Shown piece after piece: positions 5,529 to 48,586 of a stretch of 64,000 bases of DNA (the stretch's first letter is position 1; the number at the start of each line of letters is the position of its first letter). The DNA is from Olivibacter sp. SDN3 (GTDB taxonomy: Bacteria > Bacteroidota > Bacteroidia > Sphingobacteriales > Sphingobacteriaceae). The stretch lies in the NCBI RefSeq assembly GCF_014334135.1, contig NZ_CP060497.1, forward strand, positions 2,914,001-2,978,000. The letters run 5' to 3'. The notes beneath the pieces were generated by a model. It worked only from the letters and a program-made list of their open reading frames with translations, ran no database searches and was not told the DNA's origin. The position numbers and the translations under genes were made by a program.

Positions 5529-5591
5529 TAATTTTATAGAAAAAGAAGAAAAGAATGGTCAGTGATGGTCGTGATATTATTTTCATATTTG
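5529..5591 (+). promoter_or_regulatory. Candidate shared operator and promoter, site 1 (weakest copy)
   Basis: TAATTTTATA at 5529-5538 matches the locus motif TAATATCCTA at 7 of 10 positions. It lies exactly 55 bases before CATATTTG (5584-5591), a one-mismatch TAnnTTTG box. The ATG of the symporter follows 50 bases after the box. The motif is weak, but the identical spacing supports membership in the regulon. Confidence 0.45.
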
Positions 5592-5640
5592 TCAACATTT
5601 AGGGGTCAGAGGCTTAACCAATTTATTAAAACACGTATTA

Positions 5641-7191
5641 ATGAACCATCTTCCAGTTGTAGATTTAATGATAATAGGAATATACCTGATTGCCATGATA
5701 GTGGTAGGTTTTTGGTTTTCCCATAAAAATAAAACCGCTGACCAATTTACTAAGGCTGGCGGACTTATTCCCGGATGGGCTATAGGTCTGTCCATATATG
5801 CCACCTTTTTAAGTAGTAATACTTTTTTGGGTGTGCCAGGAAAGGCTTTTGGAAGTAATTGGAACTCCTTTGTGTTTAGCCTTTCCATGCCGTTAGCAGC
5901 TTGGGTTGCAGTAAAATATTTTGTTCCCTTTTACAGAAGTACTGGAAAAATATCTGCTTATACGCATTTAGAGCATCGTTTTGGACCATGGGCAAGAACC
6001 TATGCTGTTTTGTGTTTCCTGTTAACCCAATTAGCGCGTATGGGATCAATTTTTTTTGGAATAGCTTTGAGTTTGCAAGCATTGACGGGCTATACTATGG
6101 AAGTTATTATGTTGATTACCGGGGGCTGTATTATTTTGTATACGGTGATGGGGGGGATCGAAGCAGTAATCTGGACAGAGGTAGTACAGGGTGTAGTAAA
6201 AACCTTAGGGGCTTTGCTGATCATCTACCTGGTAGTGTCTAATATGCCAGGAGGCATATCGAAAATTATTGAAATTGGAAAAGCCGACCACAAATTCAGT
6301 TTAGGAAGCTTCGAACCGGCGTTTACGCAATCGACCTTTTGGGTAGTACTGCTCTACGGTTTTTTTATCAATTTAAATAATTTTGGTATGGATCAAAACT
6401 ATGTGCAACGATACCATACGGCGGTGTCTCCTAAAGACGCCGCAAGGTCGGTTTGGTTATGCGTATGGATCTATCTGCCAGCATCTTTTTTATTTTTTAT
6501 TATAGGAAGTTGTCTATATGCTTTTTATCAAATGAACCCCACTTTAATAGAATCAGTGAAAATACAGACCGCGGCAGAGCAATTGGGGGCAGCAGGAACG
6601 ACGGCGGAAATAAGCCAGTTAGCTGCTGCTCTAAAACCCGAAGATTACGGAGATAAGGTTATGCCTCATTTTATGGTTACTCAAATCCCAACCGGATTGA
6701 TTGGTCTTATTGTATCGGCCATTCTCGCGGCTGCTATGAGTACCATCAGTTCAGGTATGAACGCGTCTGCTACGGTTTTCTCGGTAGATATCTACCAGCG
6801 TTATATTCGGCAGTTTCAAAATGATAAACAAATGCTTCGTCTACTTCATGTTGCAACAACCGTATTCGGTATGCTCGGTATTATCGTAGGGATATTGATG
6901 ATCGGTGTAAAAAGTATTCTTGATGTTTGGTGGCAATTGTCGGGTATATTTGCAGGTGGTATGCTAGGCTTGTTCCTACTGGGTATGTTGAGCAAGAAGG
7001 CTAAAAATACAGATGGGATGATTGCTACCCTAGTGGGGATATCGGTTATCCTCTGGATGAGTTTTTCTTACCTGATACCAGATAGCTATAGCTACTTAAA
7101 AAGCACGCTGCATGCCAATATGATTATTGTCGTTGGCACCTTAAGTATTTACCTGGTGGGCGTTATAATTAGTTTTTTACGGAAAAAGTAA
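5641..7191 (+). CDS. Sodium:solute symporter (SSS family)
   Basis: Inner-membrane secondary transporter of the SSS family, 516 residues with about 13 hydrophobic segments. It probably couples sodium influx to uptake of a sugar or sugar acid. Family-like stretches include AGGLIPGWAIGLSIYATFLS near the N-terminus and an ILAAAMSTISSGMNASATVF segment at about residues 360-380, which resembles the sodium-binding TM8 region. It is followed 98 bases later by an NAL/DHDPS-family aldolase. A shared operator-like element upstream suggests co-regulation with the pectin enzymes. Substrate unknown; a uronic or 2-keto-3-deoxy acid released from pectin is an inference. Confidence 0.85.
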   Translation: MNHLPVVDLMIIGIYLIAMIVVGFWFSHKNKTADQFTKAGGLIPGWAIGLSIYATFLSSNTFLGVPGKAFGSNWNSFVFSLSMPLAAWVAVKYFVPFYRSTGKISAYTHLEHRFGPWARTYAVLCFLLTQLARMGSIFFGIALSLQALTGYTMEVIMLITGGCIILYTVMGGIEAVIWTEVVQGVVKTLGALLIIYLVVSNMPGGISKIIEIGKADHKFSLGSFEPAFTQSTFWVVLLYGFFINLNNFGMDQNYVQRYHTAVSPKDAARSVWLCVWIYLPASFLFFIIGSCLYAFYQMNPTLIESVKIQTAAEQLGAAGTTAEISQLAAALKPEDYGDKVMPHFMVTQIPTGLIGLIVSAILAAAMSTISSGMNASATVFSVDIYQRYIRQFQNDKQMLRLLHVATTVFGMLGIIVGILMIGVKSILDVWWQLSGIFAGGMLGLFLLGMLSKKAKNTDGMIATLVGISVILWMSFSYLIPDSYSYLKSTLHANMIIVVGTLSIYLVGVIISFLRKK

Positions 7192-7199
7192 CCTAAGGC

Positions 7200-7262
7200 T
7201 AATATCCTATAATTTGCGGCAAATATATTATAAGAAACATCACCTTGTAAAGAATAACTTTG
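7200..7262 (+). promoter_or_regulatory. Candidate shared operator and promoter, site 2
   Basis: TAATATCCTATAAT (7200-7213) is identical over 14 bases to the copy at 48441. It lies exactly 55 bases before a perfect -7 box, TAACTTTG (7255-7262). AACC follows 10 bases after the box, and the ATG is at 7289. It should drive the aldolase-to-GH95 operon. Confidence 0.75.
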
Positions 7263-14350: not shown

Positions 14351-14667
14351 TGGCTTGCGGTTTTTTTAATGATAAAATAGCGGTAGTGAATGTATATCAC
14401 AATGAAGTACCATCGTCTGCCTGTTTTTATATATACCCGCCTTATGCACGCAAGAAGGGGCAAATAAAAGTTTTTATTAGCTCAAGATTGACAGCGTGTT
14501 ACTCACGAAGACACTATCCAAAGCCGTTTAGAAAAGGTACGTGAATTTATTTTTAAGTGAATACTGCCACCCCATGATCAATGACGGGAAATAAGAGCTA
14601 ACCTTGCTTCTGAATAATGCTAAAGGCTTAATTTACTTGAGTTTAGATGTTTAATGATTATTCTTGA

Positions 14668-14730
14668 TAAGATACTATAATAAAAAGCTAAAAACCTGCA
14701 TATTTGAAGTCGCCGTTTTTTTGAATTTTG
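14668..14730 (+). promoter_or_regulatory. Candidate shared operator and promoter, site 3 (susC 1)
   Basis: TAAGATACTATAA at 14668-14680 matches TAATATCCTATAA at 11 of 13 positions. It lies exactly 55 bases before GAATTTTG (14723-14730), a one-mismatch TAnnTTTG box. AACC follows 10 bases after the box; susC starts at 14804. Confidence 0.65.
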
Positions 14731-14803: not shown

Positions 14804-17800
14804 ATGCGTAAAAACGAAGTATTAATTTATCTATACCGACTTACGAGGCGAATACCATTATTCGTATTTATTATCATACTCGTAATACTATGCTCAGACA
14901 TAAGGGCATTTGCTTTCGTAAATTTGCCAAATGGGCCGTACACAGTAGTAATAAATCAGGCATCTATAAAAGGTTCCGTTAGGGATCGAAATGGAGATCC
15001 CATTGCCGGTGCTACGATAAAAATCAAAAATGAGCAGAATTCGGTAACTACCGACGATCAAGGAAAATTTCAACTTCAGGTGCCTTCTACTGGTAGTGTA
15101 TTAATGGTAAGCTACGTTGGTTTTGCAACTCAGGAAGTTGCGATAAACGGAAGGGATGAAGTAGCTATCATATTGGAAGAAAATGCTTCTGAACTCGATG
15201 AAGTCGTCGTTATCGGCTATGGTACAACGAAAAAGAGAGATTTGACAGGATCAGTGGCCTCTATCAAATCGGAAGAGATCGTTTTAACACCTACGCATAA
15301 TCCATTGGAAGCAATGCAGGGTAGGGTTCCCGGTCTTGACATCACCCGTTCCAGTGGACAGGCTGGTGCTGGTGTAGATATTGTTCTCAGAGGGAACAGA
15401 TCAATTACCGCCAGTAACGAACCGTTATATATTATCGATGGTTTTCAAGGCGGCAGTATCGACGACCTCAATCCCAATGATATCGAGTCGATTGATGTTT
15501 TAAAGGATGCGTCTGCCACGGCGATTTATGGTTCTCAAGGAGCAAATGGTGTCATTATAGTCACGACCAAAAAAGGTATGGCTGGAAAGGCGAAAGTCTC
15601 CCTCAACAGTTACTATGGGATCAATGGACTGACACCTTATCCCGACGTCCGTTTATTTGATGACTATGTGCAGTTAAGACGGGAAGCATGGCGATATAAT
15701 GGGCAATGGACCTCTCCAGCCGATGACCCGAATATTTTCGCAAATGAAGGTGAATGGGAAGCCATTCAGAACGGAAATTGGATTAATTGGCCTGATCTGC
15801 TGCTGCAAAATGGTAGTATGCAAAATCATACGATCTCTGTTCGCGGCGGTTCCGAGAAAACCAAAGTTTTCTTTTCAGGAGGCTTTTTCCAGGAAGATGG
15901 GATTTTGCGCAACGATAACATGAAAAGGTTTAACGGGCGTTTTAACGTTGAACATGATTTAAATCGTTGGGCAAAAGTGGGAATGCTTGGACAGTTAACT
16001 TACTCAAATATTAATAGAAGAACAAGTAATTTACTGGCGAACGCCGTAACGGCGAGTCCTTTCGGACGAGCATTCGATGACAACGGTGATATCGTCGTGT
16101 ACCCAAATCCAGCCAATCCGTCGTTTCCCAGTGTATTGACTGATGAACGAGGCTCACATATCGCGACAGACAATACGCTTAGATCAAATATTATTCTCAA
16201 TACCTTTTTGGAACTGAAACCCGTTGAAGGCTTGACCATTCGGTCTAATTTTGGTACGAATTTTACCAACGACAGAAGGGGGCAATTCGATCACGAAACC
16301 TCTTGGCGACAAAGAAATACCAATTTTACGGAGGCATCGATGTCTAAAGGTTCTAACAAGTTTTTTAATTTTGATAATATCGTTAGTTATGCAAAAACAT
16401 TTGGAGAACACGATGTAACCGTTACCGGAATCACCAATTATATTCAAAACGAATATGAATTTCTATCTGCAACCGGGCGTAATCAGCCGCTGTCTTCTCA
16501 ATTATTCTATAATTTATCCGCAACTGATCAAGATAGCCGGTTGATTACGTCAAATTACACAAAGTATAACATGATGTCTTATGCAGGAAGAATCAATTAT
16601 ACATTTAAAAATAAATACATTTTTACAATAACCAACAGGTTTGATGGCGCCTCCAGATTGGCTCCAGGGAATAAGTGGAATATGTTTCCCTCGGTAGCAG
16701 GAGCTTGGGTAGTTAGTGACGAAAGGTTCATGGATAAGATTTCGTTGATCAATTTCATGAAATTAAGGGCATCCTATGGTGTAGCTGGAAATTCTGCCGT
16801 TGATCCCTACGGGACACAGAATTTGGTATACGCCAACAATAGGTTGGCATTTGGAGAAGTGCCAGCGGCGACCTATCTGTTCGAACCGCGTATTGGCAAT
16901 CAATTGCTTGGCTGGGAAAATTCCGCAACAACTAACTTTGGTTTGGATCTTGAACTTCTCAATCAACGCCTGACTGCCACTATTGATTATTATAATACGG
17001 TAACCACAGACCTCATTCTTGAGCGTACGTTACCTCAATTGACTGGTGTAGCGAGTGTATACCAAAATATAGGAAGCACGAACAATAAAGGCTTGGAAAT
17101 AAAACTAAATTCCCAGAATATACAAGCTAGTAATTTTTCTTGGAATACCGCGCTGACTTATACTAGGAATAGAGAACGGATTACAGGTCTGATCGATGAC
17201 GTTGACATTATAGATGGTTTAGATAATTCGTTGCTGTTAGGACGCCCTGTCAATTCGTTTTATGGATTTAAAAAATTAGGAATTTGGCAATCAGATGAAG
17301 CTGAAGAAGCCGCAAGTTATACCTATGGCGGCGCTAATTTTACACCTGGCGACGTGAAGATCTTAGATGTTGATGGAAACAGTATAATAGATAATAACGA
17401 TCGGATGTATTTGGGGAGTAACGTTCCTAAAGGCATCATCGGTCTCCAAAATAATTTTAGGTATAAAGCGTTCGATCTGGGTCTCTTTATCATAGGGAGG
17501 TGGGGCCAAACGATCGATGCTGAGATTTTGGCAAGATATATGGCAGATGGAGAACGAAACGGACCTGCCGCATTTAATTATTGGACACCCGAAAATCCTA
17601 CAAATGATTTCCCGCGGCCGCGGCGGAACAACCTTTCCGCATATCCTATCGAGAATGGAGTGCTAACAATTGTCGACGGATCTTTCCTTAAGATTAAAAA
17701 TATCTCTTTAGGGTACAATATGCCTTCCAGAATTGCGCAAAAGATTTTTGCGGATAAGATCAGAATTTACGCAACAGGTTCTAACCTTTTCGTTTTTTCC

Positions 17801-30039: not shown

Positions 30040-30067
30040 CGTCCAGTAATGCGTTAGATTGGTTAGT

Positions 30068-33196: not shown

Positions 33197-33211
33197 TATT
33201 TAATGTAAATT

Positions 33212-34615: not shown

Positions 34616-34685
34616 TTCTAATGATGGATTAGAAACACTGAATTATAAATGTTTTAAAGAAAAGAGTTTTCAATTTGTATTTGAA

Positions 34686-35654: not shown

Positions 35655-35809
35655 TATATGGATGGATAGTTAGGAAAATATAAATGGTCGGAGGAAGAAC
35701 CGTTAAAGCTGCAAATTTTATTAGCAAAACTCAGTTTTCAGGGGCGCTCATGAGATCGCTCCAATAGTTGTTGGTTACTTTCATTATTGGATAAAAGAAG
35801 AACAAACAA

Positions 35810-37663
35810 ATGTCACTCAAACTAAAAACAACGATAGTACTTTTCAGTATAACCTGCATGTTGCAGCAAGTTACGGTAGCACAAGATACTGTAAAATATA
35901 CGGGTACCACTTTATCCAGTGTGGATTATCATCACGGACAACTACGTCCCGTAGTAGGGGTACATAATATACAGGTGTTTCGGGCTAATCGAGAGCAGGC
36001 TAAATTAGCGGGTGGACACAATTGGACCTATAATCACCAGCCGATGTTAGCCTACTGGAAGGATACTTTCTTTTTGGAGTACCTGAGTAATCCAATTGGC
36101 GAGCATATTCCTCCAGGCCAGACCTTGTTACAAACATCTAAAGATGGCTACGAATGGTCTGATCCAGTAATTGTGTTTCCACCGTATAAAGTACCTGATG
36201 GTTGGAAAAAAACCGGACAGGATAAAGTAGCTAAGAACTTGGACGCCGTAATGCATCAACGGATGGGGTTTTATATCTCCAAAAGCAATCGCTTATTAAT
36301 ACTGGGTTATTATGGCATAGCGATGGATGCTAAAGATGATCCAAATGATGGAAATGGCATTGGACGCGTCGTGCGTGAAGTAAAGGGTAATGGAGAATTT
36401 GGTCCGATTTATTTCATTCGGTACAACGCCTCGTGGGATAAAAAGCAGTCGACTTATCCATTTTATACCGACAGCAACGAGAAAGGTTTTGTAGATGCGT
36501 GCGAAGAGGTGCTGGCCCAGCCCCTGATGATGCAACAATGGGTGGAAGAGGCAGACAGAGACGATCCTTTAATCCCACTTAAGCGAAGTATCAAGGCGTT
36601 CAGTTATTATCATCTGCCTGATGGTAGGGTGGTCGGCTTATGGAAGCATGCACTTACTTCCATCAGTAATGACGGTGGTAAATCATGGGCCTATGATGCG
36701 CTTCGGGCCCCGGGCTTTGTAAATAGCAATGCTAAAATATGGGGACAAAAAACTGTCGATGGTCGTTATGCTACCGTATATAATCCATCCGAATTCCGGT
36801 GGCCGCTAGCGATATCGACAAGTGATGATGGCTTGGAATATAAAGATCTTTTATTGGTAAATGGAGAAATAACGTCTATGCGTTATGGAGGAAATTATAA
36901 ATCGTATGGGCCACAATATGTGCGCGGTATACTGGAGGGAAATGGAAAGCCACCTGGGAACAATATGTGGGTAACCTACAGTATGAATAAGGAAGATATG
37001 TGGGTAGCCAAAATACCGGTTCCTATCGTAGCTGCCGTCGATGGCAGTGTGCAAGAGGTTTTTTCGAAAATGCCCATAGGAAAGGAGTTGAATAACTGGA
37101 ATCTCTATAGCCCATTATGGGCAACTACCAAAATAGAAGCCGCTCCTAATGGTGAAAAAGCACTGACCTTACGTGACAAAGATCCATACGATTATGCCAA
37201 AGCTGAGCGAGTGGTTCCTGAAAGTAAAAACCTCCAAGTGGAGTTTTCGGTAATACCGGCACAGGTGGATCACGGTATACTTCAAGTGGAATTTTTAGAT
37301 GATAAAGGCTCGGCAGCAGCGAGAATCATAATAGATGCCGACAGTTTGATTAAAACCAAGGCGGGTTACAGAAATGCAGGTTTAACGCAGTATGAAACTA
37401 ATGAATGCTATGATTTTAAGCTTGTGCTTGATGTGAACACCCGTTCCTACACAATCGCTGTAAACGGTCAGCAGAAAGGTGCTAAATTATTTTTTGCTCC
37501 AATTGCAAAGATCAATAGAGTTACCTTCAGAACAGGAGAGGTGCGGCGCTTTCCGGATGCTGATACACCAACCGATCAGGATTATGATTTGGAAGGAAGC
37601 GGGATACCTGCCAAAGAAGCAGTTTATTATATCACACAATTTAAAGCTAAAAAGTTATTCTAA
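35810..37663 (+). CDS. Secreted BNR-type propeller with a C-terminal jelly-roll-like domain
   Basis: Secreted protein of 617 residues, signal peptide about 1-24. The N-terminal 400 residues form a propeller with Asp-box-like turns (TSKDGYEWSDPVIV, SISNDGGKSWAYDA, STSDDGLEYKDLLL). The C-terminal 190 residues (ITFELDKGSA-type strands such as LQVEFSVIPAQVDHGILQVE and YDFKLVLDVNTRSYTIAVNG) look like a LamG/concanavalin-like domain. I do not recognise a named CAZy family; glycosidase or lyase are both possible. A 155-base gap separates it from the previous gene, without a visible promoter. Confidence 0.55.
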   Translation: MSLKLKTTIVLFSITCMLQQVTVAQDTVKYTGTTLSSVDYHHGQLRPVVGVHNIQVFRANREQAKLAGGHNWTYNHQPMLAYWKDTFFLEYLSNPIGEHIPPGQTLLQTSKDGYEWSDPVIVFPPYKVPDGWKKTGQDKVAKNLDAVMHQRMGFYISKSNRLLILGYYGIAMDAKDDPNDGNGIGRVVREVKGNGEFGPIYFIRYNASWDKKQSTYPFYTDSNEKGFVDACEEVLAQPLMMQQWVEEADRDDPLIPLKRSIKAFSYYHLPDGRVVGLWKHALTSISNDGGKSWAYDALRAPGFVNSNAKIWGQKTVDGRYATVYNPSEFRWPLAISTSDDGLEYKDLLLVNGEITSMRYGGNYKSYGPQYVRGILEGNGKPPGNNMWVTYSMNKEDMWVAKIPVPIVAAVDGSVQEVFSKMPIGKELNNWNLYSPLWATTKIEAAPNGEKALTLRDKDPYDYAKAERVVPESKNLQVEFSVIPAQVDHGILQVEFLDDKGSAAARIIIDADSLIKTKAGYRNAGLTQYETNECYDFKLVLDVNTRSYTIAVNGQQKGAKLFFAPIAKINRVTFRTGEVRRFPDADTPTDQDYDLEGSGIPAKEAVYYITQFKAKKLF

Positions 37664-37690
37664 AATAGAACTCCTATAAATGCTTACCAG

Positions 37691-40507
37691 GTGAAATCAA
37701 TAAGTAATACAATAACGAAGGAAATAATAGTACCTACCCTAAACGTGCTTGTTTGTTTAGCATTGCTTTTTTTTGCAAACTTAGCTTCCGCACAAGAAAC
37801 AACACGTCTATATTTATCCGGCACAGGAAACGATAACCAGGTAGATTGGCAATTCTATTGCACAGAGGGGCGTAATTCCGGCAAATGGACCACGATCCCG
37901 GTTCCCTCCAATTGGGAGTTAGCGGGTTTTGGAACCTATAATTATGGCTTTGATAAAAGCGAGAAGTTGGGCAAAGAAAAGGGGCAATATAAACATACTT
38001 TTCAGGTGCCATCATCTTGGGAAGGAAAACATATAAATATCGTTTTTGAAGGCGTGATGACCGATGCTGAAGTAAGGGTGAATGGTCAATTGGCAGGTCC
38101 GGTACATCAGGGGGCTTTCTACGCTTTTAGATATAATATTTCGAAACTGTTACATTTTGGTAAGGAGAATATACTAGAAGTTAATGTGTCTAAACATTCA
38201 GAAAATGAGTCGGTTAACGATGCCGAGCGAAAAGCTGACTTTTGGATTTTTGGCGGTATTTTTCGGCCTGTTTGGCTAGAAGTATTGCCTAAAACGCATA
38301 TAGAGAGGGTCTCGTTAGATGCCAGGGCAAATGGTGATTTTCGCGCAAACTTACAGCTGAACACCTCGGCCGATGAGGTGAAAGGCCAGATCTATTCATT
38401 GGAGGGCAAACCTATTGGAACGCCATTTTTACAAAAAATCACCTCGGAACAAAATGAGATCTTTTTGCATACGCAAATTAGTCAACCTGCTCTGTGGTCG
38501 TCAGAATTTCCTAATTTATATGAAGTAGTGTTTGAATTATATACAGGGAATGAATTGGTTCATCGGGAAAAAAAGCGTTTCGGGTTTAGAACAGTGGAGG
38601 TGCGTGAAAGAGATGGTATTTATGTCAATGGTGTGAAAATGAAATTTAAAGGAGTAAACCGCCACGCTTTTTGGCCGTCTTCGGGACGTACTACGAGTAA
38701 ACAAATCAGCATTGCCGACGTGAAACTTATGAAAGAGATGAATATGAATGCTGTTCGTATGTCTCATTATCCACCGGATGGTCATTTCTTGGATATATGC
38801 GACTCTTTAGGGCTTTTCGTGATGGATGAACTCGCAGGATGGCATGGACATTATGATACACCTATTGGTACTAAATTGTTGAAGGAAATGATGGCTCATG
38901 ATGAAAATCATCCATCCATCGTGATTTGGGCAAATGGCAATGAAGGGGGGCATAATCTTGATTTGGATAGTATTTTTTTAGCAGAAGACATACAAGAGCG
39001 GCCAGTGGTTCATCCATGGCAACTCTTTGGAGGGATTGAGACACAACATTACCGTGAATACAACTACGGCATCGGAAACTACAACAATGGTCGGGAAATT
39101 GTTATGCCTACCGAATTTCTTCATGGCATGTATGACGGTGGTCATGGGGCTGGTTTGGAAGATTATTGGACGCATATGTGGCATGATCCACGGTCTGCGG
39201 GGGGATTCTTATGGGATTTTGCTGATCAGGGTGTGGTGCGTACGGATAGAAAGGACTCGATCGATACTGACGGCAATCATGGAGCGGATGGTATCGTAGG
39301 ACCCTATAGGGAAAAGGAGGCTAGTTTTTTTGCTATTAAAGAAATATGGAGCCCTGTGTTCATCGAGAAAAGGGCAATAACACCGAGTTTCGATGGTACC
39401 TTTGAGATGGAAAACAGATACGCTTTTACCAATCTGAATCAGTGCGCCTTTACTTGGAAGATAAAAAGGTGGAACGAACAGGCGGAGCCGATCGACTCTT
39501 TAATGGGGGAAGCGCCTGCACCAGACATTAAACCCTTACAAAAGGGTAATTTAAAGCTTAAACTTCCAACTAATTGGCAAAATTTTGACGTGTTATATGT
39601 GACGGCGACCGATCCTCATAAAAATGAACTATTTACTTGGAGTTACCCTATTAGTCAGCCAAAAGACCTTATTAGGCAATTAGTGGATACAATAGGTAAT
39701 AATGCCGTGGAAGTAGAAGAACGCGATTCGTTATATATTGTTCAGGCTGGCGAAATCATTCTCCATATTAATAACCGCACTGGCGTTTTACATAAAGTAA
39801 GTAATAAGGAGGGAGATATTCCTTTTAATAGTGGTCCGGTATTACAACAGGGAGAAAACAATTTTAGGGGTTTTACTCATCGTAAAGAAGGAGATCAGTT
39901 GATGATTACTTCCACATTTGACGAAAAATTGAGCTATAACACACTTGAGTGGACGGTCTACCCCTCGGGCTGGGTGAAGCTGTTTGTTCGTTATTTTCCC
40001 GGAGATTACTTTACAGATTTTGTTGGACTTAATTTTTTGCTGCCTGAAGACCAAATACTGGGGGTAAAATATATGGGAATCGGACCCTACCGGGTTTGGA
40101 AAAACAGAATGAGGGGACAGGCCTTTGGCGTTTGGAGTAAAGCCTATAATGATAGTGAAACGGGAGAAGCTCCTTGGCTTTATCCTGAATTTAAGGGATA
40201 TCACGCGCAGATGTATTGGAGCGAGCTGGAATTAAAAAATCAATCCTTCAGAGTGGTAACACCTGATGAAGACACATTCTTACGCTTGTATACACCGGCA
40301 TATAAGGAAGATCCATGGAAAAACTATGATTTAATATTCCCTTCCGGAGATATTTCGTTTATGCAGGGCATAACAGGAATTGGTACCAAAACACAGAAAA
40401 GGGAAAACACCGGGCCGATGGGGAAAAAGAATATTTTTTATGATTACGAAAAGGATCCCAGTAGGGCAAAAGAACTAACCTTGTATTTTGATTTTAGTTC
40501 TAAATAA
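37691..40507 (+). CDS. GH2 beta-glycosidase 1 (beta-galactosidase-like), GTG start
   Basis: Secreted GH2 enzyme of 938 residues. No ATG fits in frame, so the GTG at 37691 is the likely start; a signal segment ends at about NLASAQ. Domain order is jelly roll (IPVPSNWELAGFGTYNYGFD), immunoglobulin-like domain, TIM barrel, then a large beta-galactosidase small-chain-like C-terminus. The general acid is Glu418 in WANGNEGGH and the nucleophile is probably Glu475 in MPTEFLHG. Beta-galactosidase, beta-glucuronidase and related activities all occur in GH2. It starts 27 bases after the propeller gene. Confidence 0.88.
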   Translation: MKSISNTITKEIIVPTLNVLVCLALLFFANLASAQETTRLYLSGTGNDNQVDWQFYCTEGRNSGKWTTIPVPSNWELAGFGTYNYGFDKSEKLGKEKGQYKHTFQVPSSWEGKHINIVFEGVMTDAEVRVNGQLAGPVHQGAFYAFRYNISKLLHFGKENILEVNVSKHSENESVNDAERKADFWIFGGIFRPVWLEVLPKTHIERVSLDARANGDFRANLQLNTSADEVKGQIYSLEGKPIGTPFLQKITSEQNEIFLHTQISQPALWSSEFPNLYEVVFELYTGNELVHREKKRFGFRTVEVRERDGIYVNGVKMKFKGVNRHAFWPSSGRTTSKQISIADVKLMKEMNMNAVRMSHYPPDGHFLDICDSLGLFVMDELAGWHGHYDTPIGTKLLKEMMAHDENHPSIVIWANGNEGGHNLDLDSIFLAEDIQERPVVHPWQLFGGIETQHYREYNYGIGNYNNGREIVMPTEFLHGMYDGGHGAGLEDYWTHMWHDPRSAGGFLWDFADQGVVRTDRKDSIDTDGNHGADGIVGPYREKEASFFAIKEIWSPVFIEKRAITPSFDGTFEMENRYAFTNLNQCAFTWKIKRWNEQAEPIDSLMGEAPAPDIKPLQKGNLKLKLPTNWQNFDVLYVTATDPHKNELFTWSYPISQPKDLIRQLVDTIGNNAVEVEERDSLYIVQAGEIILHINNRTGVLHKVSNKEGDIPFNSGPVLQQGENNFRGFTHRKEGDQLMITSTFDEKLSYNTLEWTVYPSGWVKLFVRYFPGDYFTDFVGLNFLLPEDQILGVKYMGIGPYRVWKNRMRGQAFGVWSKAYNDSETGEAPWLYPEFKGYHAQMYWSELELKNQSFRVVTPDEDTFLRLYTPAYKEDPWKNYDLIFPSGDISFMQGITGIGTKTQKRENTGPMGKKNIFYDYEKDPSRAKELTLYFDFSSK

Positions 40508-40513
40508 GCGCAT

Positions 40514-43261
40514 ATGTATAAAGCACTTACACATATATTCTTCATTGTATGGCTTTCATTACCGGCAACCTTGGTGTTTGCGGGTCAGGTTGGTATCACG
40601 CATCTACGCTGCGAGTTGCTTAACAACCCCCAGGGGATCGATGTACAGCAACCAAGGCTAAGTTGGGAACTGGTTGGTAATCAGAGAGGACTTAAGCAGG
40701 TCGCTTATCAGATTCAGGTGGCGTCGTCCCCCGAACGTTTGAAGCAAAATCAAATCGATTATTGGGATTCAGGGAGAATAACAACCGACAGTAGCGTACA
40801 TATATCTTATGGAGGAAAAATACTTCGTAGTCGCGATCGCTGCTATTGGCGGGTCAAGGTATGGAGTAGTGATGGCCAAACAGCATGGAGTGATGTGGCG
40901 TATTGGAGTGTCGGTTTGTTAAACTATAATGACTGGAAAGGTCGATGGATTGGTCTTGACCGTGCTTTTGAATGGGATCGGGAAGATCAATTCTCGCGGC
41001 TGTCGGCCAGATATTTCCGAAAAGAGTTTGAAGCAAAAAAAAACATTAAACAGGCAACGGCCTATATCATTGGGCTAGGACTTTATGAATTTTATGTGAA
41101 TGGGATGAAGATTGGTCAGCAGGTGCTGGCCCCGGCTCCAACGGATTATACGAGGGACGTGAAGTATAATACTTTTGATGTAACGAATGCCTTGCTATCG
41201 GGAAAGAACGCGTTGGGTGTAATTTTAGGTAATGGAAGGTATTATGCCATGAGACAGGCTTATAAACCATATAAAATCAAAACTTTTGGTTATCCTAAAT
41301 TGCGATTTAATTTAGAGGTGGAGTATACAGACGGAACGAGTGATTATATCAGCAGCGATGATTCCTGGATGCTTACTGCAGATGGCCCTATTCGCACCAA
41401 CAATGAGTATGATGGCGAAGAATATGACGCCCAGAAAGAATTGATGGGATGGAACGAGGTGGGATATAATGATGAAGCTTGGTTAAAAGCTGAGTTTGTG
41501 CAGGCACCGGGAGGGATGCCGCGTGCCCAGATGAGTGAGTTTATGCAAGTGATGGATACCTTGAAACCTCAGCATATCCATCAGCAAAGTCCGGGGGTAT
41601 ATGTCTTGGATATGGGGCAGAATATGACTGGATGGATAAAAATCCATGTGAAAGGGCAGGCCGGAACACAGGTGAAAATGCGTTTTGCCGAATCGCTCCA
41701 ACCCGATGGAAGTCTCTTTGTTGCGAATCTAAGGGATGCTAAAGTGACGGATAGCTATACTTTAAAGGGAAATGGCCACGAAAACTGGGAACCTCGGTTT
41801 GTATACCATGGATTTCGTTATGTAGAAATAACAGGCTATCCAGGTCAACCTTCCTTAGCTGATTTTGAAGGCATGGTTGTATATGATGCGCTTGAAACTA
41901 CAGGAAAGTTCAAAAGTAGTGACGCTACACTTAACCGGCTTTATCAAAACGCCTTTTGGGGTATTGCCGGGAACTATAAGGGGATGCCGTTAGATTGTCC
42001 GCAGCGAAATGAACGGCAACCTTGGCTGGGCGATCGTACTACAGGCGCATATGGTGAAAGTTTTATGTTTGACAATGCTAAACTATATGCGAAGTGGTTG
42101 GATGATATTCAGGCAGCACAGATGAGTGATGGCAGTATTCCAGATGTTGCCCCGGCTTATTGGCATTACTATAGCGATAATGTAACCTGGCCGGGTACTT
42201 ACCTTACGGTGGCCGACATGTTGTACAGGCAGTATGCAGATAAACGAGTGATCGAAAAGCACTACCCTTCCATGAAAAAATGGATGTTTTATATGCGTGA
42301 TAATTATACGGAAGAGGGACTGATTACAAAAGATAAGTATGGTGATTGGTGTGTGCCGCCTGAATCAGCAGAACTGATTCACTCCCGCGATCCAACAAGA
42401 CAAACCGATGGAGTATTATTGGCATCGTCGACATACTTGCATCTGCTGCAGCTTATGCAAAAGTTTGCTCAACTGTTAGGGGCTGAAAAGGATGAAGCAA
42501 CTTTCCGGGCGATGGCTGAAAAAATGAAAATAGCTTTCAATCAAAAATTCTTCGATACTCAAATAAAACAATATAGTAACAATACCGTAACAGCTAACTT
42601 ATTGCCCTTGGTCTATGATATCGTACCTGCAGAGGATAAGAAGGCTGTTTTTCAGCAGCTTGTACAAAAAATGGATGATAATCAAAGGCATATCAGTACC
42701 GGCGTGATCGGTACGCAGTGGATCATGCGTGGCTTGAGCAATTTCGGGAGACCTGATCTTGCGTTTCAACTGGCTACAAATACGACCTATCCAAGCTGGG
42801 GGTATATGGCTGCAAATGGAGCAACTACTATTTGGGAATTATGGAATGGCAATACAGCTAATCCAAATATGAATTCACAAAACCATGTAATGTTATTGGG
42901 TGACTTGCTGATATGGTATTTTGAGCACGTTGGTGGAATAAGGGCCTTGCAGCCGGGGTTTAAAACCATCGAAATGCAGCCTAATTTTGAGATACCCATG
43001 CTTTGGGCGGAAGCTTCTTATAAGTCGTTACACGGAAAGATAAGCAGTAGTTGGAAGAAAGATGGGCAGGGGATTATTTGGAAGGTTACCATCCCTCCGA
43101 ATACAAAAGCCCACCTATATTTTCCAACGAATAAGGAGGAACATGTCATGGAAAATAAAAAACCGGCAGCAAATGCAGAAGGGGTAAAGTATATAAAAAC
43201 GACCGATGGAAAGATCATCTTTGAAGTCGTAGCAGGAACCTACTCATTTACCATGGAATGA
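40514..43261 (+). CDS. GH78 alpha-L-rhamnosidase 1
   Basis: Secreted enzyme of 915 residues, signal peptide about 1-23. The Bacteroidota GH78 N-terminus reads LRCELLNNPQGIDVQQPRLS. The central (alpha/alpha)6 barrel holds DCPQRNERQPWLGD (Asp494, Glu500), the general-acid region. The likely base is in the TTIWELWNGN stretch near 780. Removes terminal alpha-L-rhamnose, which occurs in rhamnogalacturonans. It begins 6 bases after the GH2 stop. Confidence 0.92.
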   Translation: MYKALTHIFFIVWLSLPATLVFAGQVGITHLRCELLNNPQGIDVQQPRLSWELVGNQRGLKQVAYQIQVASSPERLKQNQIDYWDSGRITTDSSVHISYGGKILRSRDRCYWRVKVWSSDGQTAWSDVAYWSVGLLNYNDWKGRWIGLDRAFEWDREDQFSRLSARYFRKEFEAKKNIKQATAYIIGLGLYEFYVNGMKIGQQVLAPAPTDYTRDVKYNTFDVTNALLSGKNALGVILGNGRYYAMRQAYKPYKIKTFGYPKLRFNLEVEYTDGTSDYISSDDSWMLTADGPIRTNNEYDGEEYDAQKELMGWNEVGYNDEAWLKAEFVQAPGGMPRAQMSEFMQVMDTLKPQHIHQQSPGVYVLDMGQNMTGWIKIHVKGQAGTQVKMRFAESLQPDGSLFVANLRDAKVTDSYTLKGNGHENWEPRFVYHGFRYVEITGYPGQPSLADFEGMVVYDALETTGKFKSSDATLNRLYQNAFWGIAGNYKGMPLDCPQRNERQPWLGDRTTGAYGESFMFDNAKLYAKWLDDIQAAQMSDGSIPDVAPAYWHYYSDNVTWPGTYLTVADMLYRQYADKRVIEKHYPSMKKWMFYMRDNYTEEGLITKDKYGDWCVPPESAELIHSRDPTRQTDGVLLASSTYLHLLQLMQKFAQLLGAEKDEATFRAMAEKMKIAFNQKFFDTQIKQYSNNTVTANLLPLVYDIVPAEDKKAVFQQLVQKMDDNQRHISTGVIGTQWIMRGLSNFGRPDLAFQLATNTTYPSWGYMAANGATTIWELWNGNTANPNMNSQNHVMLLGDLLIWYFEHVGGIRALQPGFKTIEMQPNFEIPMLWAEASYKSLHGKISSSWKKDGQGIIWKVTIPPNTKAHLYFPTNKEEHVMENKKPAANAEGVKYIKTTDGKIIFEVVAGTYSFTME

Positions 43262-43274
43262 ATAATAATAAGAT

Positions 43275-44417
43275 ATGAGACTCGGCAAAATTTACTTTTT
43301 GGTTATAGCGCTATCTGGTCTGTTCACACACACCTTGCATGCGCAAAACCAGATTTGGCGTGAAGGAATAATAGTAGACGAATTTTTGTACGAGCAGGCT
43401 ACATTTCCATCGTGCCATTCGGCAACCATTGTTGAAACACCTACAGGTTTAGTGGCAGCCTTTTTTGGGGGAACGAAAGAACGGCATCCTGACGTGGAGA
43501 TCTATGTATGTAGACAGGTGAACGGAAAATGGACGGCACCCGTTTCAGCTGCCCATGGAATACAACCGAATGGCGATCGTTTGCCTACCTGGAACCCTGT
43601 TCTCTACCAAATACCTGACGGTGACCTATTGCTATTCTATAAAATAGGTCCGAAACCTGCTGAGTGGTGGGGAATGCTTAGGCGTTCGAGCGACGGGGGG
43701 CGTACATGGTCGGAAGCAGCAAGTTTACCACGTGGATATATCGGGCCGGTAAAGAATAAGCCTGTTTTATTGGATAACGGTACACTATTAAGTCCGAGTA
43801 GTACGGAAGGCAATGGTTGGAAGCTTCATTTCGAAGCTACAACCGATTTTGGTAAAAATTGGTATAAGATAGGACCGCTGAAAACCAAAGATAGTATAGA
43901 TGCTATTCAACCCAGTATCCTTAACCATGGAAAAGGTAAGTTGCAATTGTTGGCCCGTAGTAGAAATAGAGCTTTGGTGCAAGCTTGGTCAGCAGATAAC
44001 GGCGAAACATGGTCGGCCATTGAGCCAACAGATCTGCCAAACAATAATTCGGGTACGGATGCCGTGACATTAAAAGACGGGCGTCAGGTACTGGTCTATA
44101 ACCATGTTTTACCTCCGGGAGACTTGGCGAAAGGGCCACGAACACCTCTTAATGTATCGGTTTCAAGGGATGGGAAAAACTGGTACGCAGCCGTAATTTT
44201 GGAAGACTCGCCCATAAGTCAGTATTCCTATCCAGCAGTGATTCAAACACAAGATGGGCTGCTGCATTTCATTTACACGTGGCGAAGGGAGAAAATAAAA
44301 CATGTGGTAGTGGATCCGACCAAGCTGAAACTTCGAAAAATAAAAAGGGGTAAATGGCCTACTTTGAAAGGCTATACCGCACCAACGGCAACCAACTATA
44401 AAAAGGAGGAAGATTAA
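43275..44417 (+). CDS. Sialidase-like six-bladed propeller, secreted
   Basis: Secreted protein of 380 residues, signal peptide ending THTLHAQ. Four Asp boxes mark a sialidase-type propeller: SSDGGRTWSEA, TTDFGKNWYKI, SADNGETWSAI and SRDGKNWYAAV. It is much shorter than the 617-residue propeller. True sialic acid is not a pectin sugar, but the fold also handles related 2-keto-3-deoxy sugars (Kdo, Dha), and both occur in rhamnogalacturonan II. Substrate assignment is therefore only a hypothesis. It begins 13 bases after GH78 1. Confidence 0.7.
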   Translation: MRLGKIYFLVIALSGLFTHTLHAQNQIWREGIIVDEFLYEQATFPSCHSATIVETPTGLVAAFFGGTKERHPDVEIYVCRQVNGKWTAPVSAAHGIQPNGDRLPTWNPVLYQIPDGDLLLFYKIGPKPAEWWGMLRRSSDGGRTWSEAASLPRGYIGPVKNKPVLLDNGTLLSPSSTEGNGWKLHFEATTDFGKNWYKIGPLKTKDSIDAIQPSILNHGKGKLQLLARSRNRALVQAWSADNGETWSAIEPTDLPNNNSGTDAVTLKDGRQVLVYNHVLPPGDLAKGPRTPLNVSVSRDGKNWYAAVILEDSPISQYSYPAVIQTQDGLLHFIYTWRREKIKHVVVDPTKLKLRKIKRGKWPTLKGYTAPTATNYKKEED

Positions 44418-44427
44418 TCAAGGAACG

Positions 44428-45813
44428 ATGAATGTAATACGAATATTAATAGCACTATCGGCAATTGTAGGAAATATATCATTACTGTTTGCGCAGCGTA
44501 GTGATAATCAGTACAAAATGCCTTTACTAACGGTTCTGAAGCAGATCGAGAACAAGTATGACGTTCAAATCAAATACGATGAGAAGCAAGTTCAAGATCG
44601 TTGGTTGAACTATGCGCTTTGGCGTTTCAGGCCGAGTATAGAAGAAACCCTCCAACAGGTGTTGTCGCCCTTAGATTTAAGGGCGTTTCAAGAAGAAGAA
44701 GGCATTTATCGGTTGAGGGAATACGAATATTACCGTTGGCCGGTAAAAGAAGGTTGGGAAAAATTAGATCAAATAGCAGCACAATATGACGATAAGGTGA
44801 GTTGGGAATTAAGAAAAGACTCTTTGCGAACCGAGCTTTGGAAAGCTTTAGCACTATATCCGTTACCTTCTGCACCTGCTTCTAGACCTATCGTGACACC
44901 GATTAGAAAAATGAATGGCTATACCGTACAAAATGTAGCGATCGAACTATTGCCGGGAGTATATGTAAATGGTTCACTCTATAGACCGGAAAAGTTCAAG
45001 GGGAAAATTCCAATTGTATTGAGTCCTGATGGGCATTGGCAAGGGCATCGTTTTAGAAAAGATGCCCAGGTGCGCTGTGCGATGACCGCTCGTATGGGCG
45101 CCATAGCCTTTAGTTATGATTTATTTGGTTGGGGGGAGTCTGGCTTGCAGTTTAAGTACGAAGATCATCGGAAAAGTCTTGCGCAAACTATTCAGGTTTT
45201 AGGTGCAGTGCGTATTTTAGATTACTTGCTCGCGTTAAAAGAAGCAGACACTACCCGTGTGGGGATTTGCGGTGGATCTGGCGGTGGTAGTCATAGTGTA
45301 CTGATGACAGCCCTAGATTCACGTATTAAGTTGAGTATCCCCGTGGTATCACTTTCTTCCTATTTTTATGGAGGCTGTCCTTGTGAAAGCGGCATGCCAA
45401 TTCATCTATGTGCCGGCGGTACTAATAATGTCGAACTGGCAGCAATGGCTGCGCCTAATCCACAGTTAGTAATCTCAGATGGCAGTGACTGGACCGCCCA
45501 TATGCCGGAGCATGATTTTCCATATTTGCAGCAGATCTATAGCTATTACGGGAAACAGGGTTCGATAGAAAACGTGCATTTACCGCAAGAAGGACATGAT
45601 TTTGGTTTTTCCAAACGTAAACCTGTGTATGATTTCTTGTGTAAACATTTTAGTTTAGATGAGCAATTGGTAAAAGACGCACAAGGTAATTACGATGAAA
45701 GCAAATGTGTGATAGAAGAAGAATCAGCACTTTATGTTTTTGGTGAAAATGGTGAGCAGTTACCTGAAAATGTCTTAAGAGGATATAACAATTTGGAAAA
45801 ATTGTTTCAATAG
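44428..45813 (+). CDS. STN-domain plus alpha/beta-hydrolase (esterase) fusion
   Basis: Secreted protein of 461 residues, signal peptide about 1-23. Residues about 31-97 (LLTVLKQIENKYDVQIKYDE, then SIEETLQQVLSPLDLRAF) look like an STN (secretin and TonB N-terminal) domain, normally found on TonB transducers. The rest is an alpha/beta hydrolase. The nucleophile is Ser284 in CGGSGGGSHS, the acid is Asp351 or Asp354 in SDGSDWT, and the base is His390 in QEGHDFG. Acetyl or methyl esterases of pectin (CE families) have this fold. The gene begins 10 bases after the sialidase-like gene. Confidence 0.7.
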   Translation: MNVIRILIALSAIVGNISLLFAQRSDNQYKMPLLTVLKQIENKYDVQIKYDEKQVQDRWLNYALWRFRPSIEETLQQVLSPLDLRAFQEEEGIYRLREYEYYRWPVKEGWEKLDQIAAQYDDKVSWELRKDSLRTELWKALALYPLPSAPASRPIVTPIRKMNGYTVQNVAIELLPGVYVNGSLYRPEKFKGKIPIVLSPDGHWQGHRFRKDAQVRCAMTARMGAIAFSYDLFGWGESGLQFKYEDHRKSLAQTIQVLGAVRILDYLLALKEADTTRVGICGGSGGGSHSVLMTALDSRIKLSIPVVSLSSYFYGGCPCESGMPIHLCAGGTNNVELAAMAAPNPQLVISDGSDWTAHMPEHDFPYLQQIYSYYGKQGSIENVHLPQEGHDFGFSKRKPVYDFLCKHFSLDEQLVKDAQGNYDESKCVIEEESALYVFGENGEQLPENVLRGYNNLEKLFQ

Positions 45814-45832
45814 GAGTTTTAAATATCAAGGA

Positions 45833-46714
45833 ATGAACAGAAGAAAATTTATTTCAAAGACCGCTTATTTGGGAGTAGGGACTGCGATAACACCTATTCT
45901 TGCATGGGGGCGTAAGACTCCAAAGTATAAAATTGCATTAATAGATTTAATGCTCTTGAAGCGTCAAAAAGTAAGTGCCTTGGATCTTACTGAAGAACTT
46001 GGTGCAGATGGGGTTGAAGTCGATATGGGGGGCTTGGGCAATCGGGAAACCTTTGATAGTAAACTGGCACACGGATCTGTACGTAAGGCGTATCTTGAAA
46101 AAGCAAAAACGTTGAATATAGAACTCTGCTCGTTAGCAATGACAGGTTTTTATGCGCAGTCATTGGCTACCCGGCCAACTTATAAAAGAATGGTGCAGGA
46201 TTGTATTGATACCATGGTAGCCATGAAAATAAAAATCGCCTTTTTACCATTAGGCGTACAAGGTGATTTGATACAATACCCTGAACTAAGACCGCAATTG
46301 GTGAAGCGTTTGAAGGTTATTGGTGAAATGGCTAAGAAAGCTGAAGTGACAATCGGTCTTGAGACGGCATTGGATGCTACGGAAGAAAAGGAGTTTCTAA
46401 AGGAGGTTGGTTCAGCGCATATCAAAAGTTATTTCAATTTCTCCAATGCCCTCAAAAATGGTCGCGATTTATGTCAAGAGCTGCGTATCCTGGGTAAGGA
46501 ACATATTTGTCAGATACATTGTACAGACGATGATGGTGTTTTGTTGAAATATAATACACGACTAGATATGCAAAAAGTAAAAGAAACTCTCGATGCGTTG
46601 GGATGGAGTGGATGGCTCGTGATCGAGCGCTCGCGCGATGCCAAAAATCCGGGTGACGTGAAGGGGAACTTTGGGAATAATACGCGTTATATGAAAAAGA
46701 TCTTCCAAGCATGA
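45833..46714 (+). CDS. Exported sugar isomerase/epimerase-like TIM barrel
   Basis: Protein of 293 residues of the xylose-isomerase-like TIM-barrel family. The N-terminus MNRRKFISKTAYLGVGTA carries a twin-arginine-like signal, which suggests folded export to the periplasm. Possible metal ligands are the glutamates in GADGVEVDMGG, TIGLETALDA and LVIERSRD and the histidine in CQIHCTDDDG. Families of this type act as isomerases, epimerases or keto-sugar lyases. The exact reaction is not known. Its stop overlaps the next start as ATGA. Confidence 0.7.
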   Translation: MNRRKFISKTAYLGVGTAITPILAWGRKTPKYKIALIDLMLLKRQKVSALDLTEELGADGVEVDMGGLGNRETFDSKLAHGSVRKAYLEKAKTLNIELCSLAMTGFYAQSLATRPTYKRMVQDCIDTMVAMKIKIAFLPLGVQGDLIQYPELRPQLVKRLKVIGEMAKKAEVTIGLETALDATEEKEFLKEVGSAHIKSYFNFSNALKNGRDLCQELRILGKEHICQIHCTDDDGVLLKYNTRLDMQKVKETLDALGWSGWLVIERSRDAKNPGDVKGNFGNNTRYMKKIFQA

Positions 46715-48285
46715 TAGACCTATCCACGTTATTTGTTCGGTGTTTTTTTTGTATGCTCATGATGATTAATGCCTGTCAAAGTAAGCGGGTAGAAGAGATG
46801 GAATGGTTGGCGGATATACCCACGGCAAATGATGTCGGAGCAAGTGCGTTACCAGATACCATCGCACCGATATCCGCACCTTTTTCCACTGTTACATTTC
46901 ACAAACCAGATTTTCCTGACCGTTCTGTGCGGATTACAGATAAAGGGGCGACGGAAGAGCAGGTAGTCACTGGTATTATCCAGTCACTTATTAATGAGGT
47001 CGCTGAACAGGGCGGCGGTCGGGTGGTTATTCCCAAAGGAAAATGGAAAACGGGACGGATTAATTTGAAAAGTAATGTGAACCTACATGTTGAGTCGGGA
47101 GCTGAACTTCACTTCAGTGGCGAAATAGCGGATTATCTACCGGCTGTATTTACGCGTAACGAAGGAGTTGAACTCATGTCACTGGGTGCCTGTATCTACG
47201 CTAACGGCCAAAAAAATATAGCGATTACGGGTGAAGGAAAATTGCTCGGTCCGGCAGAAGGTTCGTTACGTAGGCAGATCATGACACATGACGTCATTGA
47301 AAATGTAGTTCCTTTGGATAAACCCGTTGGGCAGCGGGTTTATGAAGGGGCAGACGAAGGCTTTATTTTTCCTCCCATGCTCATCTCACCGATCAACTGC
47401 GAAGCGGTATATATAGAAGGGGTAAGTTTAGCGCGAACGGCCTTTTGGAATATCGTGCCGATTTATTGCGACAACGTAATTATTCGCGGGGTAACGATCC
47501 ATTCCGTTGGAATTCCGAGAGGAGATGGTATCGACGTGGAATCGTCCAAAAATGTGTTAATAGAATATTGTACATTAATTACCGGCGACGATTGTCTGGC
47601 TATGAAAGCAGGTCGGGGGACGGATGGTTTGCGGGTGAACAGACCTACAGAAAATGTGGTGGTGCGTTATTGCCTAGCAGAGAAAGGACATGGCGGCATA
47701 ACCATAGGTAGTGAAACTGCCGGAGTGATAAAAAATCTGTATGTGCATGATTGTGTGTTTAACAACGAAGGAAATGGGATCCGTTTTAAAACAAGAAGAC
47801 CCCGTGGAGGTGGCGGAGAGAAATTATACTACGAGCGTATTCGCATGCGCTTGGAGCAGACCGCTTTACGCTGGGATATGTTGGGTAGTGCAGTTCATGT
47901 GGGAGCGGCTGCAGACCGCACCATACCGATTGAAGCAGGCGATCTAACACCTTATTTTAGAGATATTTATATAAAAGATATCGTGGTTGAACAAGCGTCG
48001 CAATTTGTACGTGTCGACGGTATACCGGAAGCTCCGTTAAGCCATGTGGAAATACAAAGAGCCCGTGTAAATAGTGATCAGTTATTTCGGGTTGCTGATG
48101 CGGAGAATGTTTGTGTTGAAAATGCCTGGCTGAAAAGTCCAGATACTGCTATACATCTCTTAAATGCCCAAGATATTCGCATTCGAAAAGTGAAATTTGA
48201 AATTCCAACTAATCAGATTGCCATTGATGCACCAAAGCAAGATCAAGCAATTTCTTTGAAGGATATTAGCTACGTCCCATATTAG
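46711..48285 (+). CDS. GH28 family enzyme 2, lipoprotein
   Basis: Lipid-anchored (Cys22 in LMMINAC) beta-helix hydrolase of 524 residues. GH28 motifs are RGDG in place of the usual NTDG (aspartate kept), GDDC, GHGG and RFKT in place of RIKT. The changed residues around a conserved aspartate suggest different substrate specificity from the GH28 at 9867, for example an exo-acting or side-chain galacturonidase. It overlaps the previous gene by four bases and is the last gene of the long operon. Confidence 0.87.
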   Translation: MIDLSTLFVRCFFCMLMMINACQSKRVEEMEWLADIPTANDVGASALPDTIAPISAPFSTVTFHKPDFPDRSVRITDKGATEEQVVTGIIQSLINEVAEQGGGRVVIPKGKWKTGRINLKSNVNLHVESGAELHFSGEIADYLPAVFTRNEGVELMSLGACIYANGQKNIAITGEGKLLGPAEGSLRRQIMTHDVIENVVPLDKPVGQRVYEGADEGFIFPPMLISPINCEAVYIEGVSLARTAFWNIVPIYCDNVIIRGVTIHSVGIPRGDGIDVESSKNVLIEYCTLITGDDCLAMKAGRGTDGLRVNRPTENVVVRYCLAEKGHGGITIGSETAGVIKNLYVHDCVFNNEGNGIRFKTRRPRGGGGEKLYYERIRMRLEQTALRWDMLGSAVHVGAAADRTIPIEAGDLTPYFRDIYIKDIVVEQASQFVRVDGIPEAPLSHVEIQRARVNSDQLFRVADAENVCVENAWLKSPDTAIHLLNAQDIRIRKVKFEIPTNQIAIDAPKQDQAISLKDISYVPY

Positions 48286-48586
48286 CTCAGACGCATTTAC
48301 CGGCAGTAAACGGTTTGTTGAATTTTTTTATAGCTCTTTTATGCCTGATGACTTAGGCGAAAAGGCACAGCCTGGGTAAAACCTAACTATGAAAAGGCTA
48401 AAGCAAGTATAAAGAAATCAAGCAAAGATACCTTCAAAGATAATATCCTATAATATCAGGTTAAATTGCTATAAAGAACCACCTGCTATCTCACTTATAT
48501 TTGTAATTGATACTAACCTATATAAGGTACAACCGGCACTAAAACTATTTGAAACGTCTGTTGATTAACCTTTATAAACTGGATAT
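48286..48586. other. Intergenic region before GH78 2
   Basis: These 301 bases hold the shared operator/promoter at 48441-48503. A short weak hairpin near 48314-48330 (ACCG/CGGT) is followed by a T run at about 48324. It could be a poor terminator, but I do not call one. Confidence 0.5.
48441..48503 (+). promoter_or_regulatory. Candidate shared operator and promoter, site 6 (best copy)
   Basis: TAATATCCTATAATATC at 48441-48457 is a direct repeat of TAATATC with a 10-base period. It lies exactly 55 bases before TATATTTG (48496-48503), a perfect -7 box. AACC follows 11 bases after the box. GH78 2 starts at 48587. Confidence 0.78.

Follow-up and report, generated by a model that had tools for sequence, protein, structure and literature searches.

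Six promoters in the window, a 64,000-nucleotide stretch of the Olivibacter sp. SDN3 genome (contig NZ_CP060497.1, positions 2,914,001 to 2,978,000 of the forward strand), are preceded by one shared operator-like sequence of about 38 bp, always at the same 55-bp offset from the -7 box. We consider it highly likely that this sequence is the operator of a single AraC-family factor, which would bind as a dimer and activate the promoters of a pectin locus whose enzyme content marks it as a putative rhamnogalacturonan-II (RG-II) locus. The regulator of this operator is very probably a cupin-AraC protein encoded about 1 Mb away, at G000:C1:3980706–3981578. What sequence comparison shows, at the level of predicted sites and genes, is an operator with a 21-bp internal period, kept at a constant distance from the -7 box in promoters that have no -33 element; it also shows which promoters carry the operator and ties the latter to the AraC gene.

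The shared operator and its distance to the -7 box

All six operator/box pairs lie on the forward strand and were found where a preliminary description of this DNA had placed them; its claim of an identical 55-bp offset held in six cases out of six. The first operator (5527–5564, motif start 5529; box CATATTTG at 5584–5591) precedes the SSF symporter gene (5641–7191), the second (7198–7235, motif start 7200; box TAACTTTG at 7255–7262) the DHDPS-family aldolase operon, and the third (14666–14703, motif start 14668; box GAATTTTG at 14723–14730) the first susC gene (14804–17899). The fourth (21431–21468, motif start 21433; box CATATTTG at 21488–21495) stands before a DUF3826 gene (21603–22298) and the second susCD pair, the fifth (28256–28293, motif start 28258; box TATATTTG at 28313–28320) before the gene series 28402–48285, and the sixth (48439–48476, motif start 48441; box TATATTTG at 48496–48503), which is the strongest (E-value 1.5e-5), before a gene series starting with a GH78 gene at 48587. 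Two further operator/box pairs are situated in the right flank of the window (L032:2377 and L032:10395). The boxes had been described as TAnnTTTG-like, and such a box is indeed present in all six promoters; the exact TAnnTTTG is found in three only, the others being of the form nAnnTTTG (CATATTTG twice and GAATTTTG). The mechanically called aldolase open reading frame begins at a TTG (7214) inside the second operator, the real start codon being probably the ATG at 7289.

The copy at 5529 is degenerate and by far the weakest (E-value 0.03), scoring 15.7 as opposed to 32.7–44.9 for the other five sites, or 9.7 vs. 25.3–38.5 when each site is left out of its own matrix. Several relatives carry better copies of the operator in the orthologous symporter promoters.

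The sites stand out clearly against the window. When a matrix is built from five sites, the sixth ranks directly after its training set over the whole window and both strands, whichever site is left out. A second matrix, derived from 49 sites in relatives, which a model of the own sites had served to detect and which hence are not fully independent, yields seven window operators scoring at least 12. Six of these have the box at 55, and the seventh, at 6512 on the reverse strand, has no box. One hundred dinucleotide shuffles of the window contain on average 0.08 operators and not a single operator/box pair, compared with six pairs in the real sequence. The same matrix recovers all six sites from 139 kb scanned, five of them among the top seven matches and the 5529 copy as the tenth; the remaining two of the top seven are the sites in L032. 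Among the 16 intergenic gaps of at least 60 bp, the six named ones hold the operator with its box, and none of the remaining ten scores above -11.6 (plus strand, chosen gene models and starts, a matrix that includes the six sites).

For the genome-wide search we constructed an operator-only model, R1, from eight own sites without the -7 box, and applied it to the 6.12-Mb genome, scoring 150 of 3081 first-look candidates. It gives nine matches with an E-value below 0.05, of which eight belong to one locus and one is located beside an OiaX-like gene, while the next match appears at an E-value of 0.48. The possibility that the pair is equally common before unrelated genes, which the preliminary description had named as grounds for refutation, is not what this operator-only scan revealed. 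A shortened pattern, TAATATCCTA, was also tried with at most one mismatch and rejected: it matches the genome 568 times and its reversed control 700 times, so that it is useless as a marker without the second half-site.

The comparison with related genomes that had been suggested shows the spacing retained in most cases. We took all 55 R1 matches outside the own genome with an E-value of at most 0.136, of which 53 with available sequence were examined; the box is found at 55 in 45 of them, at 54 in three, and at 56 in one, the background rate per other offset being 17/5406. The constant box distance differs from the distance between the operator and the start codon, which ranges from 14 to 253 bp (computed with uncurated start codons). 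Stronger matches in the positive relatives are mostly grouped on one or few contigs. In the congener G001 the operator with the box at 55 precedes eight of eight matched genes, although its SusC1 match is only 32% identical; in G004 the operator precedes eight of eight, with the box at 55 before six of them (one being TAACTTGG), and in G003 both elements occur before all four matchable genes of the eight.

An alignment of 57 sites shows that the operator consists of two half-sites of approximately 17 bp, resembling G..AA.AT..TAYA and situated 21 bp apart. A G occupies column 1 in 56 sites and column 22 in all 57. The period is already visible in the six window sites, where all copies have G at both -1 and +20, the motif recurs in degenerate form at shift 21, and the summed match to TAATATCCTATAA is 51 at this shift, 42 at shift 5, and 38 at shift 10 (mean over shifts 3–59, 25.6). 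The preliminary description had recognized a tandem repeat, and this part stands; it had read the best copy as a TAATATC direct repeat with a 10-bp period, and here the shift similarity over the 57 sites decides for 21 bp (0.308 vs. 0.127 at shift 10). A 10-bp repeat is accordingly rejected as the main period and counts only as a minor trait of the best copy.

If the -7 box is placed at -12 to -5, the coordinate given in an excerpt of PMC9723704, the half-sites extend from about -69 to -53 and from about -48 to -32, so that the proximal one covers the position expected for the -33 box. The consensus of the box over the 57 sites, which had been pre-chosen to contain.A..TT, is TA..TTTG with a weakly conserved first T. 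That these promoters have no good -33 box, as initially proposed, is confirmed, since a TTG starting 20–27 bp before the box occurs in only one of the 57 sites. The missing element fits activator dependence. According to PMC7366714, a -33 TTTG is described for B. fragilis and was not found in Flavobacterium johnsoniae; hence its absence here may partly be a lineage trait.

The probable AraC-family regulator

The protein encoded at G000:C1:3980706–3981578 is about 290 amino acids long and aligns with its orthologues over the whole length. In two orthologues, Pfam identifies a C-terminal double helix-turn-helix (PF12833, HTH_18; E-values 6.6e-19 and 1.2e-19) and an N-terminal cupin/AraC_binding region (PF07883 and PF02311, one PF07883 match being below the cut-off), and the expected helices are present in the predicted structure of one orthologue, a model of low confidence (mean predicted local distance difference test score 66.8). 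The DNA-recognition helices are nearly invariant among orthologues. The residues of the pattern HxHx3Ex6G, which we take to be the cupin signature, are invariant in 32 orthologues.

Several lines of evidence connect this protein to the operator. A short AraC protein is encoded in the operator regions of six out of nine relatives (G002, G007, G010, G011, G015, and G017). Among 31 genomes, the best match to the AraC protein is 64–100% identical in exactly the ten that have R1 matches with an E-value below 0.02, and at most 41% identical in the other 21. In 151 genomes of the family, 51 contain both the regulator and the operator, seven the AraC gene only, five the operator only, and 88 neither (Fisher p 1.3e-26, a value that ignores kinship). 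The five operator-only matches (E-values 0.017–0.043) are no commoner than chance, as 4.7 matches are expected from 93 genomes at an E-value of 0.05.

A divergent operator with the box at 55 is present at ten of ten AraC loci of the first set, four of the ten sites having been in the matrix. We then considered the best 80 of at least 583 regulator loci from a scan of named genomes, which include Pedobacter, Mucilaginibacter, Hymenobacter, Spirosoma, Sphingobacterium, Flavobacterium, and others. At 76 of these 80 loci an operator lies within 700 bp upstream of the regulator gene and faces away from it, in 72 cases with the box at 55. As a control, 210 segments of 700 bp were drawn at random from these loci; 12 score as high, 11 of them with a box, and presumably these are neighbouring regulated promoters. 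Homologues of the window genes are frequent near the regulator: the symporter at 55 loci, the aldolase at 54, DUF3826 at 54, SusC2 at 55, and GH95 at 46, some of the SusC homologues being only about 30% identical. RG-II-specific enzymes are rarer within 20 kb of the regulator (apiosidase at 8 of the 80 loci, a BT_1020-like protein at 2), and many of the 80 may therefore be more general pectin loci.

The own AraC gene is divergent from an operon (L179:10842–18887, i.e., G000:C1:3981842–3989887) that encodes an Fe-alcohol dehydrogenase, a DHDPS-family aldolase, PdxA, a threonate-kinase-like protein, a symporter, an MFS transporter, and a DeoR protein, and the operon is preceded by a variant operator with a GCAAATATTGTACA core and the box at 55. 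This gene neighbourhood is common to three congeners and two Mucilaginibacter. Regulators with a neighbourhood of this type fall inside the larger clade of a tree read without support values; L165, L166, and L159, included in wrong reading frames, were ignored in its interpretation.

The ninth R1 match (G000:C1:2346883) is situated about 110 bp upstream of the OiaX-like gene. The best NCBIfam match of this gene is OiaX, 3-oxo-isoapionate-4-phosphate decarboxylase (509.6 bits, cut-off 700), and it is followed by a gene for an OiaK-like kinase (428.7 bits, cut-off 700). These putative apiose genes occupy L183:6161–8885 (G000:C1:2344161–2346885); apiose is a sugar of RG-II. In two relatives (L189, L190) the operator beside the OiaX-like gene has the direction of the gene and the box at 55.

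A number of observations weigh against the assignment of a single AraC-type activator to all these sites. Four of the 53 relatives' matches have no box, and more distant genomes are mixed, with several matched genes lacking an operator directly upstream, possibly because these genes lie inside operons. The co-occurrence statistics are uncorrected for shared ancestry, and R1 finds no match at an E-value of 0.05 in 7 of 58 AraC-positive genomes. Four of the 80 named loci have no scoring divergent operator and four more have no box. The GCAAATATTGTACA-core operator at the own AraC gene is unlisted by R1 even at an E-value of 10 and scores only 18.6 with the wider matrix, and three congeners carry the same variant. 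The own genome encodes nine more AraC paralogues (at most 40% identical to the G015 protein). The own site near the OiaX-like gene faces away from it and has no box at 55, and the OiaX-like genes of three other relatives have no scoring site within about 1.5 kb on either side. Finally, R1 may miss weak sites, given the share of candidates that was scored.

Proposed mode of action and alternative regulators

From these comparisons we infer that the protein binds the sites and activates the promoters, that sensing takes place in the cytoplasm, and what the effector may be. Most likely the two DNA-binding domains of the dimer occupy the half-sites, which are two helical turns apart, in head-to-tail orientation. 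The proximal half would then replace the missing -33 element, and the dimer could contact the RNA polymerase that sits on the -7 box, which would explain the rigid 55-bp spacing. An RG-II breakdown product that binds the cupin domain would switch on about ten target promoters, namely, the eight of the RG-II locus, that of the operon divergent from the regulator's own gene, and possibly that of the apiose-catabolism operon.

This arrangement resembles E. coli AraC on araI1-araI2, where a protein with a cupin and a double helix-turn-helix occupies head-to-tail half-sites 21 bp apart, the proximal half being at -35. The differences are the Bacteroidetes promoter with its TAnnTTTG -7 box and the many target promoters. 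E. coli AraC also represses in the absence of its ligand, and this precedent makes it conceivable, if unlikely, that the Olivibacter protein binds the operator and represses, or works only together with another regulator, instead of being a simple ligand-dependent activator. Repression is compatible with the sequence, but the position of the proximal half-site over the -33 zone, the near absence of a -33 box, and the fixed distance to the -7 box fit activation.

We give a somewhat smaller chance to a hybrid two-component system (HTCS) encoded elsewhere in the genome, whose AraC-type output domain would recognize the operator; regulation of this sort is typical of polysaccharide loci in Bacteroides. 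Direct repeats with a mean of 21 bp are likewise predicted as HTCS operators in Bacteroides, and HTCS_Rgu-1 and HTCS_Rgu-2 share with the regulator proposed here the AraC-type DNA-binding domain, the repeats of about 21 bp, and the control of pectin loci; the RG-II locus of B. thetaiotaomicron holds the HTCS BT0981 (excerpts of PMC3878776). The own genome contains HTCS genes at 3371k, 3462k, and 5314k, as well as two more HTCS-like regions (L065, L066), and, among nine relatives whose operator regions were compared, these regions contain full or nearly full HTCS matches in G002 and G007; G010 has such a match on a separate contig, and in G015 the match is partial and of the kinase type. On the other hand, no HTCS match was found in the window or in its flanks L031–L033, and HTCS-like frames with more than 400 aligned amino acids occur in only 3 of the 80 named loci, as opposed to the 76 with a divergent operator at the AraC gene. 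HTCSs carry a periplasmic sensor, a kinase, and a receiver domain, whereas Pfam detects only the cupin and helix-turn-helix domains in two orthologues of about 290 amino acids and neither a sensor propeller nor a kinase or receiver domain. The initial suggestion of an AraC-type or hybrid two-component regulator located outside the window is thus retained in its first part and set aside in its second.

Two other regulators are encoded in the locus itself, a GntR-type protein (55201–56232) and an IclR-type protein (L032:4658–5479), and either might bind the shared sequence, which we think very improbable. Matches to GntR with 72–74% identity do exist in the operator contigs of the congeners G001, G003, and G004, and one with 57% in that of G015. 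However, G002, G007, G010, G011, and G017 have the operator and no GntR match above 51%, while G005, G006, G016, and G018 have GntR matches of 47–52% and no operator match with an E-value below 0.25. The 80 named loci contain the GntR marker once and the IclR marker never. Moreover, GntR operators are usually palindromic, unlike the direct repeat observed here. The GntR-type gene, whose product has a Peripla_BP_3 domain, sits inside the GH78 gene series; its conservation in the operator contigs of the three congeners suggests that it may control something narrower.

It is scarcely credible that the motif reflects A-T-rich upstream promoter elements or chance similarity: it is A-T-rich and has weak partial copies elsewhere in the window, but the G columns are almost without exception, the shuffled windows contain no pairs, and regulator-free genomes have no excess of matches.

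The AraC-family regulator proposed here can also be compared, by description, with Bacteroides RhaR (BT3768), likewise an AraC-family positive regulator of a plant-sugar pathway (excerpts of PMC3870299 and PMC3878776). RhaR controls just one rhamnose operon, in contrast to the eight promoters of the RG-II locus, and the own genome has no match to RhaA (PF06134). Direct repeats with a 21-bp period are reported for AraC-family rhamnose regulators in Bacteroides in passages of PMC3870299, and, with the HTCS motifs, they make this a kind of system that is already known; for BT0981, no motif could be predicted in 2013 according to PMC3878776. Searches of the openly licensed literature in PubMed Central listed no publication that treats the regulator or the operator in these bacteria. 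The predicted RG-II-locus regulon, with its operator and regulator, is large and new, within a kind already described. It provides a concrete operator, a promoter geometry, and a candidate regulator for an RG-II locus, and suggests that one soluble AraC protein does the job of the Bacteroides membrane HTCSs in Olivibacter, as well as in related pectin loci of Pedobacter, Mucilaginibacter, Hymenobacter, Spirosoma, and Flavobacterium. The operator may serve as a promoter part for Bacteroidetes and as a tag for further genes of RG-II sugars, i.e., apiose, 3-deoxy-D-manno-octulosonic acid (KDO), and the 3-deoxy-ulosonic diacid DHA.

Gene content of the locus and the candidate effector

The genes of the locus encode SusCD pairs and enzymes of the families GH95, GH28, GH78, and GH2. 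The series that follows the fifth operator starts with the gene at 28402 and continues with DUF6298, apiosidase-like, BT_1020-like, GH2, GH78, BNR_2, esterase-like, and GH28 genes. Its first gene had been described as a polysaccharide lyase of family PL1; no Pfam lyase match was found for it. After the sixth operator, GH78 is followed by GH130-like, GH2, GntR, BT_1002-like, BPa0997-like, and rhaM genes. Solved-structure matches include 5mqr (deposited as a beta-L-arabinobiosidase; Pfam BT_1020-like), 5msy and 8t9w (glycoside hydrolase, apiosidase), 6hzf (BPa0997), and 5mqp (BT_1002). The enzymes with these matches presumably act on RG-II, and on this basis they mark the locus as a predicted RG-II locus. 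To the right of the window the locus goes on with genes for another rhamnosidase-like protein, a LacZ-type GH2, GH106, and GH127, as well as with a third SusCD pair.

As Pfam finds only the cupin and helix-turn-helix domains in two orthologues of the regulator, it should sense a cytoplasmic compound, and the retained HxHx3Ex6G pattern suggests a metal-bound acidic sugar as the effector. Tentatively, we propose that the protein responds in the cytoplasm to a sugar acid characteristic of RG-II, i.e., KDO, DHA, or their aldolase products, a guess made from the neighbouring aldolases and an isomerase-like gene. The aldolases on the regulator side are NanA/DapA-like, below curated cut-offs, and the isomerase-like gene has a Pfam match below the cut-off and no NCBIfam match. 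Among the genes beside the regulator, the symporter, the NanA/DapA-type aldolase, and the fucose-isomerase-like gene together look like a route from KDO through D-arabinose to D-ribulose, and the Fe-alcohol dehydrogenase, aldolase, PdxA, and threonate-kinase-like genes of the own operon look like a route from DHA to pyruvate and a four-carbon acid. If the proposal is true, this polysaccharide, the most complex one of plants, has its degradation switched on by sugars that occur almost nowhere else.

No match to L-rhamnose isomerase (RhaA, PF06134) was found in the genome, despite several rhamnosidases and the rhaM domain in the locus; a TIM-barrel gene (45833–46714) might stand in for it. The LacZ-like gene is followed by a cassette (L032:13844–18367 and L033:23–1156) that encodes an extracellular binding-protein-like product, two family III CoA-transferases, a Gfo/Idh oxidoreductase, and an MFS transporter, possibly for the catabolism of an unusual RG-II sugar. 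Three Flavobacterium (L222, L225, L227) have homologues of this cassette beside their AraC gene.

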